Assembly: GCF_023195885.1 (NCBI RefSeq)
Contig: NZ_JALPKO010000006.1
Location: 62,001 to 126,000 of the forward strand
Length of the DNA stretch: 64,000 nt
Reading direction: 5' to 3'
Origin: Methylonatrum kenyense
Lineage (GTDB): Bacteria > Pseudomonadota > Gammaproteobacteria > Nitrococcales > Aquisalimonadaceae
Made by a program: the position numbers and the translations under genes. This document shows, in pieces, positions 2,438 through 62,619 of the stretch; positions within the stretch are counted from its first letter, which is position 1; every line of letters starts with the position of its first letter. The notes under the pieces are model-generated. The model saw nothing but the letters and a program-made list of their open reading frames with translations, ran no database searches and was not told the DNA's origin.

Positions 2438-3490
2438 GTGGCGCAGACCACACTCGAAGGATTGGCGAATGCCCTGGGGCTGACATTCCGTGGCGATGGC
2501 TCGGTCATCGTGGATCATGTCGCTTCATTGGGGGACGCGGATCCCCGGTCCCTGAGTTTTCTCGCTGATCCGAAGCACCGCAAGCACCTGGAACAGACAC
2601 GTGCCGGGATCGTCGTTTTGCATCCCGACATGGCGGATTCAAGTCCGGTGCCGGTGCTGCTTTCAAAGAATCCGCACTATGCGTTCGCACGCGCCGCGTC
2701 CATCGTGCATCCGCCGCCGGACGGTGATGGCCAGGTGCATCCAACAGCCTGGGTTCATCCCGAAGCCCGTCTGGGCAGAAACGTCAGTATCGGCCCCCAT
2801 GCCTCGGTGGATGCCGGTTGCCGGCTGGCGGATGATGTCATCGTCGGGCCCGGGTCGATTCTGGGTAAAGGCGTGCAGGTCGGGCGTGGCAGTCGGCTGG
2901 TTGCCCGGGTTACGGTTTGGGACGGCTGCATCATCGGTCAGCGTTGCCTGCTGCATCCGGGAGCGGTGATCGGCGCGGACGGCTTTGGCTATGCCAACGA
3001 CGAGGGCCGCTGGAGCAAGGTACCGCAGGTCGGCGTGGTGCGCCTCGGCAATGATGTCGATGTGGGCTGCAATACCACGATTGACCGAGGCGCGATTGGT
3101 GACACGCTGATCGGCAATGGGGTCAAGCTGGATAATCTGGTCCAGATCGGGCACAACGTTGAAATCGGGGAACACACCATTGTGGTTGCCTGCTCCGGCA
3201 TCGCCGGCAGCACACGTATCGGGCGCCACTGCGCCATTGGTGGCGCTGTTGGTATGGCAGGACATATCAGTATTGCCGACGGTGTCCAGATTACCGGGAT
3301 GACGCAGGTCACCAAGAGCCTTAACGAGCCGGGCCTTTATTCCTCGGGTACCGGTGTGGAACCCAACCGTCAATGGCGGCGGAATGCGGCGCGCTTCCAT
3401 CAACTGGATGCCATGGCCAAGCGACTCAGGCAACTGGAACAGCAGCTGGCGGCACGGGGTGACGAGCAGAGGGATTCATCCGAATCCTGA
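2438..3490 (+). CDS. lpxD: UDP-3-O-(3-hydroxyacyl)glucosamine N-acyltransferase LpxD
   Basis: Third step of lipid A synthesis: transfers a 3-hydroxyacyl chain from ACP to the 2-amino group of UDP-3-O-acyl-GlcN in the cytoplasm. 350 residues, the usual length. The N-terminal LpxD domain is followed by left-handed beta-helix hexapeptide repeats (VGPGSILGKGVQVGRG and others), and the catalytic histidine lies in QIGHNVEIGEH. A C-terminal helix ends the protein. GTG start preceded by AGGAG. First of four lipid A/fatty-acid genes in a row (lpxD-fabZ-lpxA-lpxB). If the downstream GnnAB cassette is active, this enzyme must also accept substrates whose 3-position is amide-linked. Confidence 0.97.
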   Translation: MAQTTLEGLANALGLTFRGDGSVIVDHVASLGDADPRSLSFLADPKHRKHLEQTRAGIVVLHPDMADSSPVPVLLSKNPHYAFARAASIVHPPPDGDGQVHPTAWVHPEARLGRNVSIGPHASVDAGCRLADDVIVGPGSILGKGVQVGRGSRLVARVTVWDGCIIGQRCLLHPGAVIGADGFGYANDEGRWSKVPQVGVVRLGNDVDVGCNTTIDRGAIGDTLIGNGVKLDNLVQIGHNVEIGEHTIVVACSGIAGSTRIGRHCAIGGAVGMAGHISIADGVQITGMTQVTKSLNEPGLYSSGTGVEPNRQWRRNAARFHQLDAMAKRLRQLEQQLAARGDEQRDSSES

Positions 3491-3514
3491 GTCGGAACAA
3501 CAAGAAGCGAATTC

Positions 3515-3952
3515 ATGGATATTCAACAGATCCTCAACCATCTCCCGCATCGGTATCCGTTCCTGCTGGTTGATCGGGTGGTGGAATCCAACCCCGGCGA
3601 GTCCCTGGCCGCGATCAAGAACGTCACGATCAACGAGCCATTCTTCCAGGGCCATTTTCCGATCCGGCCGGTGATGCCCGGGGTGCTGATTCTCGAAGCC
3701 ATGGCCCAGGCCTGCGGACTACTGGCCTTCGCCACCGAAGGTGAGGCTCCCGGCAGCACCATCTTTTACCTGGTGGGAGTGGATAACGCACGGTTCAAGC
3801 GTCCCGTCGAACCGGGTGACCAGGTTCGTCTGGAAAGCCGGATCGCCCGCCGCCGGCGGGGAATCTGGGTATTCGATGCCCGCGCCTCGGTCGATGGGCA
3901 GTTGGTTGCCGAGGCTGAAATCATGTGCACGATGCGGGATGTGGCGGCTTGA
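3515..3952 (+). CDS. fabZ: 3-hydroxyacyl-[ACP] dehydratase FabZ
   Basis: Dehydrates 3-hydroxyacyl-ACP in type II fatty acid synthesis, competing with LpxA and LpxD for the same hydroxyacyl-ACP pool. 145-residue hot-dog fold protein. The catalytic His lies in [11 protein letters not shown] and the catalytic Glu in [11 protein letters not shown]. It begins [22 protein letters not shown], typical of the family. Its stop codon overlaps the TTG start of lpxA (TTGA), implying translational coupling within the lipid A operon. Confidence 0.97.
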
Positions 3953-4719
3953 TCCATCCAACCGCTATTATCGATCCGGCTGCGAGTCTTGCCGACGATG
4001 TCTCCGTTGGTCCGTTCACGATCATCGGTCCGGACGTCGAGATCGCCTCGGGTACGACCATTGGCCCGCACGTGACGTTGCGGGGACCGACGCGGATAGG
4101 CCGCCAGAATCGTATCTTCCAGTACGCCTCGATCGGCGACGAGCCCCAGGACAAGAAGTTCAAGGGTGAAAAAACCGGTCTGGAGATCGGGGATCGCAAT
4201 ACCATCCGCGAATTCGTGACCATCAATCGCGGCACCGTGCAGGACCGTGGGCTGACCAGCATCGGCAACGATAACTGGATCATGGCCTATGTCCACGTCG
4301 CGCACGATTGCGTGATCGGCGACCGCACGGTGTTTGCCAACGGCTCATCGCTGGCGGGGCACGTGCTGGTGGGTGATGATGCCATCCTTGGCGGCTTCAG
4401 CCTGGTGCACCAGTTCTGCAATATCGGCGCCCATGCCTTCACCGCCATGGGCAGTACGATCAAGCAGGATGTACCGCCGTTCATTACCGTTTCCGGAAAT
4501 CCTGCCGTGCCCCACGGGGTCAACGCCGAGGGGCTGCGCCGCCGCGGTTTCGAACCGCCGGATATCCAGATCCTGCGCCGTGCGTACCGGACGCTTTATA
4601 AATCCGGATTGCGTCTCGAGCAGGCGATCGACGAGATTCAGCCATTGGCCAGGGACTGCGCTGCCGTCGGCGAACTGCTGGAGTTCATCGCGTCGGCAAA
4701 GCGCGGCCTCGTTCGCTAG
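3949..4719 (+). CDS. lpxA: UDP-N-acetylglucosamine O-acyltransferase LpxA (canonical copy)
   Basis: First step of lipid A synthesis: 3-O-acylation of UDP-GlcNAc from 3-hydroxyacyl-ACP. 256 residues. The TTG start at 3949 overlaps the fabZ stop and gives the family-typical beginning [10 protein letters not shown]; an upstream ATG at 3925 would only add out-of-family residues. Left-handed beta-helix repeats are followed by the helical C-terminus. The catalytic His is H119 in HVAHDC. The position matching E. coli Gly173, the acyl-chain ruler, is Met167 (context AFTAMGST), as in Pseudomonas aeruginosa LpxA, which prefers C10 chains. A second LpxA paralogue lies at 12323-13102. Family identity is firm; chain length is inferred. 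Confidence 0.96.
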
Positions 4720-9943: not shown

Positions 9944-11038
9944 TTAAAAAACACTTTTAACCGTTGACGTCACTTCGTCGATCTGCGCGTCGTTGAGTTC
10001 CGGGAATATCGGCAGCGACATGCAGCGGCGGGCGATGTCCTCCGTGACCGACAGCATCTGGCCCTTGCAGTCTTCCTTGAACACCTCCTGCTGGTGCAGG
10101 GGAACCGGATAGTAGACCGCACAACCGATCTGCTTTTCGCGCAGGGCCGCCAGGATGGTGTCGCGGCGGTCGGAAAGCAGCGTGTATTGATGATAGACGT
10201 GCTGCATGCCGGGTCGCTCCGACGGCACCACGACGCCCGGCAGTTCGCCGAGAGCCTCCGAATAGGCGTGCGCGGCACGACGACGACCGGCATTGAAACT
10301 GTCGATGTGCCGGAGTTTGGCGCGCAGGATCACCGCCTGCATTTCGTCCAGGCGGCTGTTGTAACCGATCACGTGGTGGTAATAGCGCTCGCGGCTGCCG
10401 TGATTCCGGTAGACCTTCAATTCCTCGGCAATGGCATCCGAGTTGGTTGATACCAGCCCCCCATCGCCGTAGCAGCCAAGGTTCTTGCTGGGGAAGAAGC
10501 TGTGGCAACCGGCGATCCCGAAGGCCCCGGTCTGCACGCCATCGACCGTCGCGCCGAAGGACTGTGCGCAGTCCTCAATCAGCAGCAGGCCGTTGTCGTA
10601 GGCCAGTTGCTGCAATGGCGTGATCTCGGCAGGGTGGCCGAACAGGTGGACCGGCAGGATCGCGCGTGTGCGTTCGGTGATCGCCTGCCGCACCAGATCC
10701 GGATCGAGATTCATGGTGTCCGGCTCGATATCCACGAAAACCGGTGTCGCGCCGACGTATCGGATCGCCTCGGCGGTTGCAATAAACGTGAAGGGACTGG
10801 TGATGACCTCGTCACCGGCACCTATGCCGGCGGCACGCAGCGCCAGGTGCAAGGCGTCGGTGCCGGAGGCGCAGGCCACGGCGTGCTTCACGCCCAGATA
10901 ATCGGCCGTTTCCTGCTCGAAGGCCTGGACATTCGGCCCAAGAATGAACTGGGCGCCGTCCAGCACCTTCGACAATTCGCGTTCGATTTCCTCGCGGATG
11001 AGCGGGTATTGTGCGGTGAGATCCACCATTGGAATCAT
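9944..11038 (-). CDS. gnnB: DegT/DnrJ/EryC1 aminotransferase, GnnB-like (UDP-GlcNAc 3-aminotransferase)
   Basis: PLP-dependent sugar nucleotide aminotransferase, 364 residues. PLP-binding landmarks are IEDCAQSFGA and the Schiff-base lysine K185 in FFPSKNLGCYGDGG. Such enzymes convert a 3-keto-UDP-GlcNAc to the 3-amino sugar. The family alone cannot separate GnnB (lipid A) from WbpE/WlbC (O-antigen). The order lpxA2-gnnA-gnnB on the same strand, and the lack of a UDP-glucose dehydrogenase or N-acetyltransferase, favour GnnB. ATG start with GAGGA upstream. A 276-bp inverted-repeat element separates it from gnnA. Family 0.95; the specific role is inferred. Confidence 0.8.
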   Translation of the reverse strand: MIPMVDLTAQYPLIREEIERELSKVLDGAQFILGPNVQAFEQETADYLGVKHAVACASGTDALHLALRAAGIGAGDEVITSPFTFIATAEAIRYVGATPVFVDIEPDTMNLDPDLVRQAITERTRAILPVHLFGHPAEITPLQQLAYDNGLLLIEDCAQSFGATVDGVQTGAFGIAGCHSFFPSKNLGCYGDGGLVSTNSDAIAEELKVYRNHGSRERYYHHVIGYNSRLDEMQAVILRAKLRHIDSFNAGRRRAAHAYSEALGELPGVVVPSERPGMQHVYHQYTLLSDRRDTILAALREKQIGCAVYYPVPLHQQEVFKEDCKGQMLSVTEDIARRCMSLPIFPELNDAQIDEVTSTVKSVF

Positions 11039-11069
11039 CTGATTGGTCCTCGGGAAGACGTTAATTCAT

Positions 11070-11345
11070 TAAGGAAACGCTGATTTACTCCCGCGTCTGC
11101 GTTGGAGTCCGCATTTTTTCCGAGGCAAGGCGCGCTGCGCAGCGCCGCAGTCATTCTGCGGTCACGCAGCGCAACACAGCAATCGGGAAAAATGCGGCCC
11201 AACCCGAAGGGCCCGGCCGGTTTTGGCCCCTGGCGGCGTTGCGCCACCGGCCCGGTAGCTCAAGCTACCGAACCGGCACCGCGCCTTGCCAGATGACCAA
11301 AACCGGTCTCGGGCGCAGGCGCGGGAATAAATCAGCGTTTCCTTA
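11070..11345. mobile_element. Small inverted-repeat element (MITE-like), full copy inside the gnn cassette
   Basis: 276 bp with no coding potential. The left end reads TAAGGAAACGCTGATTTA and the right end is its exact inverse; about 32 bp of the termini pair with two mismatches. TA flanks both ends, consistent with duplication of a TA target. The interior contains stem-forming pairs (GGTAGCTC/GAGCTACC-like core; CCGGTTTTGG/CCAAAACCGG). The right-hand TA plus A is the TAA stop codon of gnnA (11343-11345). A near-identical copy lies at 51673-51947. Confidence 0.88.
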
Positions 11346-12326
11346 TCTCATTCGCGTGTCAGCGCTGGCCATGATCCTGTCCAGCATCGGATTGCTGCGC
11401 AGCAGGCGGCCGATCTCCATGGCCGTCTGCAGGGCCTGCAGCCCATCCTCGCCGCTAACGATGGGCCTTGAACCCTGCTGCACGCTGTCGAGAAAGGCTT
11501 CGATTTCGGTCAGCAGGGCATCTCCTGCCTCGAAGCTGACCTGTTCGGATTCGATATTGGGGATGCCGGGATGCTGTTCCCCGTCGCCGGTCCTCCGGAT
11601 GTCCAGCGAGCGAGCCTGGAAATCCAGCGCTATGTAGCCGCTTTGCTGGAACAGGCGCATCTTGCGTTCACTCTTCTGGCTCACCCGGCTCGCGGTGACA
11701 TTGGCGACACAGCCGTTCTCGAATTGCAGCCGTGCGTTGGCAATGTCGATGTCGTTCGAGATCACCGGCACGCCGTTGGCATCGATTCTCTGCACTGGCT
11801 GGCCGACGAGGGTCAGAATGATGTCGATGTCGTGAATCATCAGATCCAGCACCACACTGACGTCGGCACCACGCGGGTTGAACGGCGCCAGGCGGTGCGA
11901 CTCGATGAACAGCGGCGTCTCGATCCGGTCGGAGAGTGCCTGCACGGCGGGGTTGAAGCGCTCCAGATGGCCGACCTGCAGGCGCAAGTCCCGTTCGGCG
12001 GCCGTGTCCACCAGTTGCCGCGCCTCGTCCAGCGTGGCAGTGATGGGTTTCTCCACCAGCACATGGATCCCGGCGCGCAGCATGTCCAGGGCCACGGCAT
12101 GGTGCAGTCGGGTGGGTACCACCACGCTAACCACATCCACGCGACCGACCAGGTTCCGGTGGTCGGTCAGCGCCTCGCAGCCAAGTTCGGTAGCGACGCT
12201 GGCAGCCCGTTCGCCATCCCTGTCGACCACCGCGACCAGATCGGACTCGGGCAGGGCCGCATACTTCTGGGCGTGAAAACGACCCAGGTAGCCGGCGCCG
12301 ATCACCGCTGCGCGCAACTTGCTCAT
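11343..12326 (-). CDS. gnnA: Gfo/Idh/MocA oxidoreductase, GnnA-like (UDP-GlcNAc 3-dehydrogenase)
   Basis: NAD(P)-dependent dehydrogenase, 327 residues, predicted to oxidise the 3-OH of UDP-GlcNAc to a ketone for GnnB. The N-terminal Rossmann motif is VIGAGYLGRFHAQKY and the Gfo/Idh signature VLVEKPITAT includes the conserved EKP lysine; a C-terminal substrate domain follows. Its ATG overlaps the stop of lpxA2 (ATGA), so the two are translationally coupled. That physical link is the main reason for calling it GnnA rather than an O-antigen WbpB/WlbA enzyme. Its stop codon is supplied by the terminus of an inverted-repeat element. Confidence 0.82.
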   Translation of the reverse strand: MSKLRAAVIGAGYLGRFHAQKYAALPESDLVAVVDRDGERAASVATELGCEALTDHRNLVGRVDVVSVVVPTRLHHAVALDMLRAGIHVLVEKPITATLDEARQLVDTAAERDLRLQVGHLERFNPAVQALSDRIETPLFIESHRLAPFNPRGADVSVVLDLMIHDIDIILTLVGQPVQRIDANGVPVISNDIDIANARLQFENGCVANVTASRVSQKSERKMRLFQQSGYIALDFQARSLDIRRTGDGEQHPGIPNIESEQVSFEAGDALLTEIEAFLDSVQQGSRPIVSGEDGLQALQTAMEIGRLLRSNPMLDRIMASADTRMR

Positions 12327-13102
12327 CGGGTAATGCCTCGTTTACTGGTTCGTATGAAATCAAGCAGATCGCGGATCGGCTGGCTCTGAAGACCCGCATT
12401 CGCTTCGATGGCGGCGAGCGCCTCGTTCAGCCGCAGGCCGTCTCGAAACAGCAGCCGGTATGCCGTGCGGATCTGCCGAATGATGTCCGCCTCGAAGCCA
12501 TGACGCTGGAGCCCGCGCCGATTGACGCCATACAGCCGGGCGTGATTGCCGGATGCCATGGCGTAGGGCGGAATATCCATCGGCGCCATGGTGCCGCCGC
12601 CGAGCATGGCGTAGGCGCCGATGCGGGCGAACTGGTGCACCGCGCACAGGCCGGCAATGTTGACATGATCACCGACGCTGACGTGACCGGCCAGGGTGGC
12701 GGCGTTCGCCATCGTGATGTGATTGCCAAGCACGCAGTCATGGCCTACATGGCTGTACGCCATCAGGTAATTGTCGTTGCCCAGCCGGGTTACGTGATTT
12801 TCCTTGGTGGTTGCCCGGTGGATGGTCACGAACTCGCGCAATACATTGTCGTTACCGATCTCCAGCCGCGTGGGCTCACCCTCGTACGCCCGGTCCTGGG
12901 GCGGCGTGCCAAGCACGCAGTGTGGCCCGATCCGGTTGTTCGAGCCGATTTGCATCGGCCCTTCCAGCACTGCGTGGGCACCGACGCTGCAGCCATCACC
13001 GAGTTCCACATCAGCGCCGATCACGGCGCCAGCGGCGATGATGACGGAGTCGCCTAGAATCGCTCCAGGGTGTACGGTTGCGGTCTCGTGAATGGTCGGC
13101 AA
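12323..13102 (-). CDS. lpxA2: Second LpxA-type acyltransferase, probable UDP-GlcNAc3N N-acyltransferase
   Basis: 259-residue LpxA paralogue with the full left-handed beta-helix and C-terminal helical domain. The catalytic His is H121 in HVGHDC; LAGHVSVGD and VHQF are also conserved. The residue matching the E. coli Gly173 chain-length ruler is Gly169 (MLGGGT), unlike Met167 in the canonical LpxA of this genome. TTG start (MPTIHETATVHPGA) with no strong ribosome site. It heads a minus-strand cassette with gnnA (4-base overlap) and gnnB, which suggests it N-acylates the 3-amino sugar. Divergent from dnaE by 188 bp. LpxA fold is certain; substrate is inferred from context. Confidence 0.88.
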   Translation of the reverse strand: MPTIHETATVHPGAILGDSVIIAAGAVIGADVELGDGCSVGAHAVLEGPMQIGSNNRIGPHCVLGTPPQDRAYEGEPTRLEIGNDNVLREFVTIHRATTKENHVTRLGNDNYLMAYSHVGHDCVLGNHITMANAATLAGHVSVGDHVNIAGLCAVHQFARIGAYAMLGGGTMAPMDIPPYAMASGNHARLYGVNRRGLQRHGFEADIIRQIRTAYRLLFRDGLRLNEALAAIEANAGLQSQPIRDLLDFIRTSKRGITR

Positions 13103-16800: not shown

Positions 16801-16902
16801 GTAAACACGGGCCTGGTAGTGCGCCTGCGCTGAACTCGGGCATTGCCAGATGACCAGAACCGGTCTAGGGCACAGACCCGCGAATGAATCCGTGTTTCCT
16901 TG
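16798..16902. mobile_element. Short degenerate copy of the inverted-repeat element
   Basis: Left end TAGGTAAACACGG overlaps the dnaE stop codon. The right end, CCGTGTTTCCTTG, is the matching inverse. The interior retains GCCAGATGACCAGAACCGGTC, matching the right half of the full copies, with the left half deleted. About 105 bp, no coding capacity. Confidence 0.75.
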
Positions 16903-29460: not shown

Positions 29461-29624
29461 GGGACACACTGATCTCTTCCGGCGTCTGCGCCCAAGACCG
29501 GTTTTGGTCATCTGGCAAGGCGCGCCACCGGCCCGGTAGCTCTGGTTCCCGAATCGGCACCGCGCCTTGCCTCGGCAAAATGCGGACTCCAACGCAGGCG
29601 TGCGAATAGATCAGTGTTTCCCCA
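29458..29624. mobile_element. Degenerate copy of the inverted-repeat element
   Basis: Left end TAGGGGACACACTGATC overlaps the nlpD stop codon. The right end is GATCAGTGTTTCCCCA. The interior keeps GACCGGTTTTGGTCATCTGG, a shortened GGTAGC core, and AATGCGGACTCCAACGCAGG. These are the two outer arms of the full copies with the middle deleted. About 167 bp; the right-hand TA has decayed to CA. Confidence 0.8.
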
Positions 29625-48747: not shown

Positions 48748-49295
48748 TAGGGAAACGGCGACCAGTTCCCGCGCCTGCGCCCGAGACCGGTTTTGGTCAT
48801 CTGGCAAGGCGCGGTGCCGGTTCGGTAGCCGTCGCTACCGGGCCGGTGGCGCAACACCGCCAGGGACCAAAACCGGCCGGGGCTTAGGCAAGCATGCGCC
48901 GTCGCACGCCGCCGCGTGACCGTCGGATTCGCTGACCTGCAAGGCGCGGTGCGCCGCGCGAGGGTGATTCCCTCGTCCAGCGCCGCAACGCCGCAGGGCG
49001 GGGAATCCGGCGGTCACCCGCAGGGCTCGGGCCGTTCTTCCGCCTGGCGGTGTCGGAGGCCACCCCGGGTAGCACCACGACCCGAGGCGACCTGCTCCTT
49101 GCCAGCCGAAAGAACGGCACTCGAGCGCGGCGGCGTGGGACGGTGCATGCTTGCCTCCGGTTGGGCCGCATTTTCCCCGATTGCTGCGTTGCGCTGCTTG
49201 ACCGCAGAATGACTGCGGCGCAGCGCAGCGCGCCTTGCCTCGGAAAAAATGCGGACTCCAACGCAGACGTGCGAATTGGTCGCCGTTTCCCTAGC
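48748..49295. mobile_element. Compound inverted-repeat element between parA and pyrD
   Basis: 548 bp without convincing genes. The left end TAGGGAAACGGCGACCA and the right end TGGTCGCCGTTTCCCTA are exact inverses with TA at each border. Outer arms match the 276-bp copies (CCGGTTTTGGTCATCTGGC; GAAAAAATGCGGACTCC). A second GC-rich block (about 48900-49140) with its own inverted arms (TGCTTGCCTCCGG/CCGGGGCTTAGGCAAGCA) is nested in the middle. Immediately left, ATTGGCCGCCGTTTCCA is another element end facing it. The right end lies 8 bp before the pyrD ATG. Confidence 0.75.
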
Positions 49296-51066: not shown

Positions 51067-51675
51067 ATGAATCGGGCATTGGATGAGCTGAGTCCAGAGG
51101 TGCAGTTGCGTCAGCGGCTGATGCTGGCAGGCGAAGTGTCGCCACGGTCGCCGTTTGCGCTGGACTGGTCCGGGGCACGGGAAGCTGCGGTGCTGCTCGC
51201 GGTGATGCAGCGTGAGGCGGGATCCACTGTACTTTTGACGCGACGCAGTGATGAGCTGCCGCATCACGCCGGCCAGATCAGCTTACCGGGTGGGCGCGTC
51301 GAGGCCGGTGACAAATCCGTGGTCGACACTGCGTTGCGCGAGGCCATGGAAGAGGTCGGGTTGGCGGCGAACCGGGTTGAAACACTCGGCCATTTCGGCC
51401 CGTTCCAGACCGGCACCGGTTTCATCGTGCATACCGTCCTGGGCCTCGTGGCGGAGCCGCCGCTCCTGACTCCGGATCCAAGAGAGGTCGCAGACGTCGT
51501 CGAACTGCCGCTAGCGGTCGCACTGGATCCCTGCGCGTACCAGCCGCACCTGTTGCGACGCGGCGAAAGAACGTATTCAGGATTCGCCATCGACTTTGAA
51601 GGCCACCGGATATGGGGCGCGACAGCGTGTATCCTGCGTTGTCTGATGGAGAGTACCCTGCGGGCCGAGCGTTAA
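51067..51675 (+). CDS. Nudix CoA pyrophosphatase
   Basis: 202-residue Nudix hydrolase of the CoA diphosphatase (NudL/UPF0035) branch. The branch-specific LLTRRSDELPHHAGQISLPGG precedes the Nudix box GGRVEAGDKSVVDTALREAMEEVGL, which coordinates Mg. It would cleave CoA or acyl-CoA to phosphopantetheine and 3',5'-ADP. ATG at 51067; a TTG at 51055 is possible. The TAA stop is the TA and first base of an inverted-repeat element. Confidence 0.92.
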   Translation: MNRALDELSPEVQLRQRLMLAGEVSPRSPFALDWSGAREAAVLLAVMQREAGSTVLLTRRSDELPHHAGQISLPGGRVEAGDKSVVDTALREAMEEVGLAANRVETLGHFGPFQTGTGFIVHTVLGLVAEPPLLTPDPREVADVVELPLAVALDPCAYQPHLLRRGERTYSGFAIDFEGHRIWGATACILRCLMESTLRAER

Positions 51676-51947
51676 GGAAACACGGATTTATTCGCACGCC
51701 TGCGTTGGAGTCCACATTTTTTCCGAGCAAGGCGCGCTGCGCAGCGCCGCAGTTACTCTGCGGTCAAGCAGCGCAACACAGCATTCGGGGAAAATGCGGC
51801 CCAACCCGAAGGGCCCGGCCGGTTTTGGCCCCTGGCGGCGTTGCGTCCCCGGCCCGGTAGCTAGGGCTACCGAACCGGCACCGCGCCTTGCCAGATGACC
51901 AAAACCGGTCGCGGGCGCAGACGCGGGAATAGATCCGTGTTTCCTTA
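51673..51947. mobile_element. Small inverted-repeat element (MITE-like), second full copy
   Basis: 275 bp, strongly similar along its length to the copy at 11070-11345 (shared runs GGCGCGCTGCGCAGCGCCGC, CCCAACCCGAAGGGCCCGG, GCCAGATGACCAAAACCGG). The left end TAAGGAAACACGGATTTA supplies the Nudix gene stop codon. The right end TCCGTGTTTCCTTA is followed directly by AGGAAATGCTGA, so two element ends stand back to back sharing one TA. No coding capacity. Confidence 0.88.
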
Positions 51948-60678: not shown

Positions 60679-61653
60679 ATGCAGCCGTTTCCCGCCCATC
60701 GTCTGAGTGTTGCCCCGATGATGGAGTGCACCGATCGCTTCGCGCGCTACCTGTTGCGGCTCATTTCGCGGCACTGCCTGCTGTATACCGAGATGGTGCC
60801 GGCGGCGGCGATTGCGCATGGCAAGCATGCCCAGTTCCTGCCGTTTCATCAGGCCGAGCATCCACTGGCCGTGCAGTTTGGCGGCAACGCCGGGGACGAA
60901 CTTGCCGCGTGTGCCCGCTGGGCGCAGCGCTACGGCTACGATGAAGTGAACCTGAACATCGGCTGTCCCAGCGACCGGGTGAAATCGGGTCGCTTCGGTG
61001 CCTGCCTGATGGCAGAACCGGAACGGGTCGCGCTGATGGTTCGTGCCATGCGCAGTGCCGTGGATCTACCGGTTACCGTGAAAACCCGGATCGGCATTGA
61101 CGACATGGACGATTATGCGGACCTGCGCAACTTCGTCGATCGGGTGGCGGAGAGCGGTTGCCGGCATTTCATCGTTCATGCGCGCAAGGCCTGGCTTCAG
61201 GGGCTGAGTCCGAAGCAGAACCGGGATGTGCCGCCGTTGTGCTATGACAGTGTCTACCGGTTGAAGCAGGAGCTGCCGGAGCTCGAGATCGTGATCAATG
61301 GGGGGATCGCCTCGATTGACGAGGCGGAGGAACACCTGCGTTACGTCGATGGCGTGATGCTTGGCCGGGCCGCCTATCACACGCCATGGATCCTGGCCGA
61401 GGCGGATCGACGGCTGTTCGGCGACCTCGAGTCGGCGCCGGATCGGATGACCGTCTATCAGGCCTACCTGGAGTTCGTCGATGCCGAGTTGCGGGACGGC
61501 ACGGCACTGAGCGCCATGAGCCGGCACGTGCTGGGCCTGTTCCAGGGCGTGCCGGGTGCTCGCCGGTTCAGGCGCCACATCAGCGAAAATGCCCACCGCC
61601 GGGGGGCAGGCCTTGGCGTGCTCGAGGATGCCGCTGCTGCGCTCCAGCTTTGA
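60679..61653 (+). CDS. dusA: tRNA-dihydrouridine(20/20a) synthase DusA
   Basis: FMN enzyme that reduces U20/U20a in the tRNA D-loop. 324 residues. HRLSVAPMMECTDRFARYLLR binds FMN; LNIGCPSDRVKSGRFGACLM contains the catalytic Cys; VTVKTRIGIDDMD, IVHARKAWLQGLSPKQNRDVPPL and MLGRAAYHTPWIL are DusA-type rather than DusB/C. I chose the ATG at 60679; open codons upstream run through the decayed element. The TGA stop coincides with the left end of another element copy. Confidence 0.95.
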   Translation: MQPFPAHRLSVAPMMECTDRFARYLLRLISRHCLLYTEMVPAAAIAHGKHAQFLPFHQAEHPLAVQFGGNAGDELAACARWAQRYGYDEVNLNIGCPSDRVKSGRFGACLMAEPERVALMVRAMRSAVDLPVTVKTRIGIDDMDDYADLRNFVDRVAESGCRHFIVHARKAWLQGLSPKQNRDVPPLCYDSVYRLKQELPELEIVINGGIASIDEAEEHLRYVDGVMLGRAAYHTPWILAEADRRLFGDLESAPDRMTVYQAYLEFVDAELRDGTALSAMSRHVLGLFQGVPGARRFRRHISENAHRRGAGLGVLEDAAAALQL

Positions 61654-61770
61654 GGAAACGTTGATTTATTTGCGCGCCCGCCCAGGACCCCCGGCCGGGT
61701 TCAGTCCTTGCGGCGTTGTGCCGCCGGTGCGTTAGCGACGGCTAACGAGGCTGGCTGCCGCCGAACAGCG
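61651..61770. mobile_element. Truncated copy of the inverted-repeat element after dusA
   Basis: Left end TGAGGAAACGTTGATTTATT overlaps the dusA stop codon (TA decayed to TG). Then CCGGCCGGGTTCAGTCCTTGCGGCGTTG and a GCGTTAGC/GGCTAACG hairpin correspond to the centre of the full copies. The right half is missing; tatD ends at 61771. Confidence 0.65.
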
Positions 61771-62619
61771 CTACTGGCTACGAAGCTCCGGCCCAAGGTC
61801 GACTCCCTCCTTGTCACTGATCCGCAGGCCGCGCCCAAGGCGGAAAAAGCGACGTGCGTTGGCCGAGGTCGTGGCCCCAAGCTGTTCCAGGTCCTCGCCA
61901 CGGTGTTCGGCGACGCCCTCCAGCACGTAGCCGAGATAGGCGGGTTCATTGCGCCCGTTTTTCGGCTTCGGCTTCAGGGTGCGCGGCAACAGATAGGGCG
62001 CGTCGCTCTCGATCAGCAGGCGGTTGGCCGGAATGTCCCGGACAATGCCGCGAAGCGTCTCGCCGCGGCGTTCATCGCAGATCCATCCGGTGACGCCGAT
62101 GTAGAGGTCCAGATCCAGATAATCGTGCAGGGCCTCGCGGGTGTCGGTGAAGCAGTGGACCACGGCGTCCACCAGGTCATCGCGGTACTCCCGCAGGATC
62201 GGCAACAGCCGGGCATGCGCATCCCGTTGGTGGATGAATACCGGCATTTCGAGCTCAACGGCCAGTTCCAGTTGTGCGGCGAAGGCCTTCTCCTGGTCAG
62301 GGCGCGGTGAGAAATCCCGATTGAAGTCGAGCCCGGTTTCTCCGATGGCGACGACTTCCGGCAGGGCCGCCAGTTGCCGCAACTCCTGCAGTCCCTCGGT
62401 GGTCAGCGAATCCGCGTGGTGCGGATGGACGCCGGCGGTACTGACGACCTGACGCGGGAAACGCGCCGCGATTTCGGCGGCCTTGCGCGACTCTTTGACC
62501 GTGGTTCCGGTTGCGACCATTGCCAGGACGCTGGCCGCCGCGGCGCGTTCGAGAACGGTTTCCAGGTCGTCCGCAAAGGCCCGGTTTCCGAGATTGACGC
62601 CGATGTCGATCAATTCCAC
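61771..62619 (-). CDS. tatD: TatD-family metal-dependent deoxyribonuclease
   Basis: 282 residues from the GTG at 62619 (MELIDIGVNLGNRAF); longer frames upstream are not family-like. TIM-barrel metal-site motifs: TAGVHPHHADSL, AIGETGLDFNRDFSP, PVFIHQRDAHARLLPIL, VVHCFTDTREAL and LLIESDAPYLLPR. 3'-5' exonuclease of DNA repair/turnover; despite the name not needed for Tat export. Here it is alone, convergent with dusA. Confidence 0.93.
   Translation of the reverse strand: MELIDIGVNLGNRAFADDLETVLERAAAASVLAMVATGTTVKESRKAAEIAARFPRQVVSTAGVHPHHADSLTTEGLQELRQLAALPEVVAIGETGLDFNRDFSPRPDQEKAFAAQLELAVELEMPVFIHQRDAHARLLPILREYRDDLVDAVVHCFTDTREALHDYLDLDLYIGVTGWICDERRGETLRGIVRDIPANRLLIESDAPYLLPRTLKPKPKNGRNEPAYLGYVLEGVAEHRGEDLEQLGATTSANARRFFRLGRGLRISDKEGVDLGPELRSQ

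Follow-up and report, generated by a model that had tools for sequence, protein, structure and literature searches.

The element between gnnA and gnnB of Methylonatrum kenyense is best explained as a non-autonomous IS5-type DNA transposon, a MITE, whose copies are probably stranded and whose net effect on expression is probably small; we put the probability of this reading at roughly 0.85. The 64,000-nt stretch analyzed here, which we refer to as the window, is part of contig C26 of a 2.95 Mb genome in 29 contigs (G000). At 270 bp, the element is within the ∼500-bp size limit of MITEs; it carries no transposase gene, has terminal inverted repeats and a target duplication, and is present in many copies. 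Element-free orthologous sites are found at the gnn junction, and partner insertion sequences (ISs) with matching ends are found in two relatives, G011 and G004. At the junction itself, the ends are of the GGAARCRCTGAT type with a 4-bp YTAR-type target duplication, and the element is absent from this junction in the relatives examined, with the exception of one distant genus (Thioalkalivibrio). The features of the locus, in window coordinates, are as follows.

9944-11038, minus strand: gnnB-like DegT/DnrJ/EryC1 aminotransferase (open reading frame list and superfamily match)
11047-11051, minus strand: GAGGA, likely gnnB ribosome-binding site, read from the sequence; outside the MITE and intact
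11069-11072, no strand: target site duplication TTAA (copy line-up)
11070-11101, no strand: terminal stem P1, gnnB-side arm (repeat search and fold; inner limit approximate)
11073-11342, minus strand (the gnn transcript strand, which folds more stably): MITE body, 270 bp, starting GGAAACGCTGATTTA and ending in its inverted repeat
11102-11202, minus strand: branched arm P3, gnnB side of the junction (fold; limits approximate, its base not being defined by the consensus)
11196-11213, minus strand: weak terminator-like stem-loop followed by GCATTTTTCC; the 5-pair stem competes with the full fold
11203-11211, minus strand: tiny hairpin at the Y junction (fold and consensus; limits approximate)
11212-11313, minus strand: branched arm P2, gnnA side of the junction (fold and consensus; limits approximate)
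11314-11345, no strand: terminal stem P1, gnnA-side arm (repeat search and fold; inner limit approximate)
11343-11346, no strand: target site duplication TTAT, differing from TTAA at one base; holds the gnnA TAA stop (minus strand)
11343-12326, minus strand: gnnA-like GFO/IDH/MocA oxidoreductase (open reading frame list and superfamily match), its stop codon in the target duplication
12323-13102, minus strand: lpxA-type acyltransferase (lpxA2), overlapping gnnA by 4 bp

GnnA and GnnB fall in the expected superfamilies and lpxA is adjacent, with all NCBIfam equivalog models below cut-off; the names gnnA and gnnB, which follow superfamily and neighborhood rather than an equivalog model, are best read as putative. 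A second lpxA is located on the plus strand of the window at 3952-4716 (G000:C26:65952-66716) and shares 46% identity with the copy upstream of gnnA, so the label lpxA2 is fair. In Capnocytophaga, two lpxA genes together with gnnA/gnnB are linked by one report to a hybrid lipid A backbone (PMC3342949). From gene order alone, we infer that lpxA2 through gnnB form a single transcription unit. When compared with the nearest relative, G002, both gnnA (dN 0.084, dS 0.80, ratio ∼0.10) and gnnB (dN 0.064, dS 0.89, ratio ∼0.07) look constrained, and most of this divergence may predate the MITE insertion.

An earlier note on this DNA described a 276-bp inverted repeat between gnnA and gnnB, and this repeat is present at 11070-11345, with 31 bp (11039-11069) making up the rest of the interval. 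An inverted-repeat search finds outer arms at 11070-11116 and 11299-11345 that are 83% complementary, and two inner arm pairs besides. Lining up the copies sets the edges of the transposed unit at 11073-11342 (270 bp), which the 276-bp repeat exceeds at either end by three bases of the 4-bp target duplication. A 2-bp TA duplication was abandoned in favor of the 4-bp duplication after this line-up. On the gene strand, gnnA ends with ATG AGA TAA, and the TAA (11343-11345) lies within the duplication; the MITE is therefore located in the gnnA stop codon. Because the target duplication carries that codon, gnnA and gnnB are both whole despite the insertion. With the MITE present, 304 bp separate the gnnA stop from the gnnB start, and a GAGGA stretch 8 nt upstream of the gnnB ATG is retained. 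The open reading frame list contains no frame of at least 80 aa wholly inside the 270-bp element.

The element belongs to a populous family. Its end motif occurs 6 times in the window at up to 2 mismatches, where 0.04 matches are expected, and a 16-base version gives 245 matches genome-wide at up to 1 mismatch (reversed control, 0). Forty long matches to the element were obtained in this genome, all from the 40 candidates scored out of 253 first-look candidates, and this bacterium probably carries over a hundred copies. Our copy statistics use 35 near-full copies and leave out five partial ones (L032, L034, L035, L038, and L040); among the relatives' loci, L046 and L048 are likewise excluded, and L049 stands outside. 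The table of relatives' copies has 26 rows, 24 of them distinct, since L092 and L098 duplicate L045 and L047. In the near-full copies, the moving unit mostly begins GGAAAC and finishes GTTTCC, with a 4-bp target duplication outside. The duplication is exact in 17 of the 35 (nine TTAA, six CTAG, one TTAG, and one CCAG) and in 10 of the 24 distinct relative copies; the flanking 4-mers are unequal in the other 18 of our 35, the gnn-junction copy (TTAA/TTAT, three of four bases matching) included. TTAA and CTAG, being palindromes, could also be counted as inverted repeat. Seven distinct non-palindromic flank matches (L011, L023, L045, L083, L085, L086, and L089) are direct repeats and therefore fit a duplication, which requires this. 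The family is modular, with forms of ∼50 bp (stem only), 276, 328, 410, and 546 bp on contig C24 and in the window; in the 546-bp form a second Y is nested in the junction.

A 4-bp YTAR target duplication is the hallmark of the IS5 family. G011 contains a 1202-bp IS5-family IS with ends GGAAACGCTGAT / GGAGACACTGAT (also written GGAAACGCTGATCTA and GGAGACACTGATTTATTC) and a 327-aa transposase, which passes the NCBIfam model NF033581 (transpos_IS5_4; 341 bits against a cut-off of 140) and has a PF01609 match at the same place. G004 has four intact IS copies with 95% identity to that of G011; three are flanked by an exact YTAR duplication (TTAG or CTAA) and the fourth by CTAA/CTAG. We liken the MITE to these ISs by the shared GGAARCGCTGAT-type ends and 4-bp YTAR-type duplications, whereas the two differ in size and in the presence of a transposase gene. 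Four other PF01609 matches (two in G001, one in G006, and one on contig C52 of G011) have no matching end pair in the stretches around them. Beside the G011 IS, at ∼887-1075 of L115, there is another hairpin element with GGAGCCTCTGATCTATTCGC ends, by eye apparently a further MITE subfamily.

In the M. kenyense genome itself, a profile search finds no match to the PF01609 transposase domain, and an intact IS5-type transposase was not found in the assembly. What the genome does contain is one 47-residue transposase remnant with a stop, next to a similar end (G000:C24:201810-202086, in L110), which is perhaps the extinct helper of these MITEs. Because this decayed piece is the only one found, the copies are probably stranded, and an IS copy may be missing from the assembly. 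With no intact transposase found, these data give no sign of recent mobility. We infer that the element was moved in trans by an IS5-family transposase like those that relatives have kept intact, that it would now be stranded in this genome, and that the gnn copy is probably one of many surviving where no gene is broken.

The distribution of the copies is in keeping with such survival. Overlap with a called gene exceeds 60 bp in none of the 35, though 127 of 317 YTAR sites are coding; these calls come from a home-made codon-usage caller (initial training on seven genes of the window, retraining on genes of C24), which would miss genes split by an insertion. By these crude calls, the neighboring genes are co-directional for 20 copies (split 10 to 10 by orientation of the copy), divergent for 6, and convergent for 4, and 5 copies are unclassified. 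Insertions in stop codons number 8 of 35, compared with 41 of 190 tolerated YTAR sites (p = 0.84), where the background sites had to be exact YTAR, the eight observed copies did not (the gnn copy is TTAT), and the tolerated noncoding sites include some within elements. Special targeting of stop codons was rejected, as 8 of 35 is what tolerated sites predict. By a rough estimate, 7-15% of the tolerated sites are occupied. A YTAR target can be a TAA or TAG stop codon, and the duplication restores the codon. About one fifth of the tolerated sites in the 338 kb examined are stop codons, which yields a simple rule for the sites at which elements survive. The gnn junction is thus an example of a lipid-A sugar operon accepting a highly structured 270-bp insertion.

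We then consider the fold. The earlier note had envisaged a long RNA hairpin in the transcript; the great stability holds, but the predicted shape is a Y, a stem with two branched arms, and not a single hairpin. Gene-strand RNA covering 11039-11349 folds at -194.6 kcal/mol, whereas shuffled sequences average -122.96 (z = -13.05), and 0 of 100 shuffles is as stable. The terminal stem has 26 uninterrupted pairs and opens into the two arms plus a tiny junction hairpin. Our fold alignment holds 37 of 61 near-full rows, made up of 13 of the 35 own copies (hand-chosen) and all 24 distinct relative copies, from seven genomes in three genera (G000-G003; G005 and G011; G006). Across these 37 copies, standard pairs make up 96.2% of pair cells, both-sided changes occur at 46 of 93 consensus pairs (29.2 in shuffles, 9-15 in slid controls), and the covariation score is 0.342 (shuffles, 0.159; slid controls, no more than 0.079). 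The count of further pair types, 99, is weakly above the shuffles' 93.9, and 27 of 500 shuffles reach 99. In the terminal stem of the 35 own copies, 48 double changes keep Watson-Crick pairing and 4 do not; 12 of the 48 are in the three outermost columns, which are target duplication. One-sided changes number 122, and two columns with differing arms in most copies account for 50 of these.

The two strands do not fold equally well. The gene strand gives the better fold in 34 of 35 own copies and 20 of 24 distinct relative copies, and it contains more G-U pairs than the other strand (9.7 vs 5.6 in own copies; 8.3 vs 5.2 in relative copies). When departures are counted over the pairs common to both strands' folds, the three helices in this genome show 42 G-U and 49 A-C, and strand-specific selection on recent changes is not seen here. 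In the relatives, the counts are skewed 41 to 6 in P2 and, in the reverse sense, 15 to 42 in P3. We read these data as a fold kept in source elements, followed by neutral decay after insertion. Stem pairing may have been kept either by selection or by template switching between the arms, which can also keep stems paired according to PMC8794818, and the family is a good case for asking which of the two lies behind paired changes in palindromes.

Some of these observations fit the MITE account less comfortably. Transposase-bound ends are expected to be roughly 18 bp long, and the complementarity here extends well beyond that length; a branched fold kept across three genera also seems more than pure mobility needs. 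A rival view, compatible with a MITE, treats the family as structured RNA (or single-stranded DNA): selection would act on the branched fold and not on the sequence, and mobility would merely spread the element. The excess of both-sided changes over shuffled and slid controls argues for it, as do the better-folding gene strand and its additional G-U pairs. However, the G-U and A-C departures in this genome are equal, as expected if neither strand is favored, and the relatives' P2 and P3 lean in opposite directions; moreover, the copies share ancestry, the strand bias may be one inherited state, the further pair types exceed shuffles weakly, and template switching offers another route to paired stems. 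A search of Rfam 15 places the element in no family above threshold (best 26.1 bits against 70.4), the sole window match being a tRNA elsewhere. We consider this explanation quite unlikely. More doubtful still is the broader proposal of an Ectothiorhodospiraceae-wide mobile structured-RNA module that inserts at the ends of genes and there redefines 3' ends or operon junctions, having hit gnnA-gnnB separately in two genera; if true, the branched one-strand fold would be the conserved feature, paired across genera while sequence drifts.

Comparison with relatives supports an insertion at this junction. The element has matches at E ≤ 0.001 in 14 of 58 relatives, 11 of the 13 in the same family among them, some of these being short or weak pieces. 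In 26 of 29 relative loci gnnB is adjacent to gnnA, and 25 of the 26 gaps, at -4 to 84 bp, are too short for the MITE (L075 is the 26th, a locus without a usable gap; L079 is a relative at 26% identity only). The three same-genus relatives have gaps of 11, 46, and 22 bp. In a set of 80 named loci, which may overlap with the relative set, gnnB is found in the stretch at 60, with gaps of -35 to 423 bp, and 20 have no gnnB match in the stretch. Gap contents were read in the five named loci above 162 bp, the remaining gaps being too short for the element. The sole member of the family among the 60 is at L203 (Thioalkalivibrio sp. ALMg11), where a 317-bp gap holds its own element at ∼3485-3794 with a GGAAACACTGATTAATG stem; its best pieces are 68-70% identical to the window MITE, and its flanks are unequal (CAAG/CTAA). 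There, gnnA runs into the element, and the last residues and stop codon are supplied by the element's end sequence. The end motif of this element has 50 matches in ALMg11 (controls 0), 12 in Thioalkalivibrio sp. ALJ24, and 3 in T. sulfidiphilus ALJ17. The ALMg11 and window insertions would appear to be independent. Because ∼10% of tolerated sites are occupied, it is unsurprising that relatives rich in the element should include a second insertion at this junction. In a Methylobacter (L142), the 213-bp gnnA-gnnB gap contains other strong palindromes, which we take as another sign that the junction tolerates insertions. The element gave no match in two collections, one of plasmids and one of phages, at the search sensitivity used.

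The earlier note also suggested that the insertion could alter gnnB expression relative to lpxA2-gnnA. Its structural basis is borne out, namely an inserted inverted repeat, a strong fold in gnnA-to-gnnB read-through RNA, and element-free relatives; the regulatory consequence is where we differ. In its full form, and compatibly with a MITE, the idea is that the hairpin attenuates, stabilizes, or splits the lpxA2-gnnA-gnnB message and so sets the GnnA/GnnB ratio. The very stable fold and a weak terminator-like site, both on the transcript strand, are consistent with this, and Correia and ERIC elements provide precedents for MITE effects on transcripts (PMC10969869, section 4.1). Yet copies between co-directional genes show no favored orientation, gnnA-gnnB spacing varies widely, and a sequence scan finds no sigma-70-like promoter in the element. 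Against a large effect in particular, the GAGGA is kept, gnnA and gnnB look constrained, a related element occupies the same junction in a Thioalkalivibrio, and the element has one weak 5-pair terminator-like site only (two such sites occur in the 601-bp stretch scanned, against 0.6 expected, the other being in gnnB). Roles as a promoter and, given this single weak site and the balanced orientation, as an intrinsic terminator were rejected. We regard regulation by the element as unlikely.

An ordinary, tolerated insertion is most likely. The variable spacing speaks against obligatory translational coupling of gnnA and gnnB, and we favor a near-neutral insertion because spacing varies freely elsewhere and the ribosome-binding site is retained. 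Even so, a 304-nt structured spacer would remove any gnnA-gnnB translational coupling there was, and the long double-stranded RNA may add an RNase III site, with cutting as reported for Correia elements; RNase processing of the MITE transcript is plausible by analogy with Correia and ERIC (PMC10969869). As gnnB retains its own ribosome-binding site, the net effect on gnnB is probably small.

Several described repeat families invite comparison. The enterobacterial MITE ERIC is likewise a dispersed inverted repeat, mostly outside genes, with gene-3'-end copies reported to affect transcripts; ERIC is 127 bp long and has a TA target, and by this description differs from the 270-bp element in size and target. 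Correia repeats, a Neisseria MITE, are also short inverted repeats in operons with folding transcripts, but by description (PMC10969869, section 4.1) they bear promoters and an IHF site, and RNase III is reported to process them. QMITE2 of Coxiella burnetii, another gammaproteobacterial MITE, is mainly 3' untranslated or intergenic and has a -113 kcal/mol fold; as described in PMC5896051, it is 150-190 bp long with 7-11 nt duplications of variable sequence. REP/REPIN sequences are palindromes of 20-40 bp that carry a single terminal tag, GTAG or CGTC, and have a RAYT partner, unlike a 270-bp unit with a 4-bp duplication. That the element is a member of REP/REPIN, ERIC, or Correia is very improbable: it is palindromic, and two Thioalkalivibrio isolates are reported to carry GTAG REPs (PMC3733652), but the YTAR-type duplication, GGAARCRCTGAT ends, and IS5-family partner all argue otherwise. 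The open-access literature searched yielded no description of this IS5-type YTAR MITE family, giving reports on REPs for Thioalkalivibrio, and we have seemingly an undescribed family of a known kind.

Other family members were noted in passing. The window has a 546-bp form at 48748-49293, further members or fragments at 51673-51947 and 29462-29621, and weak or partial matches at 61653-61778 and 16837-16901. At L032 (∼1516-1787) and L035 (∼1543-1815), the core is shared (94-96%), and the terminal stems are quite different yet self-complementary, of a type absent from the other loci compared. Around the L032 copy there is an additional, larger inverted repeat; close to this site, the same-genus relatives carry family ends of the ordinary type.
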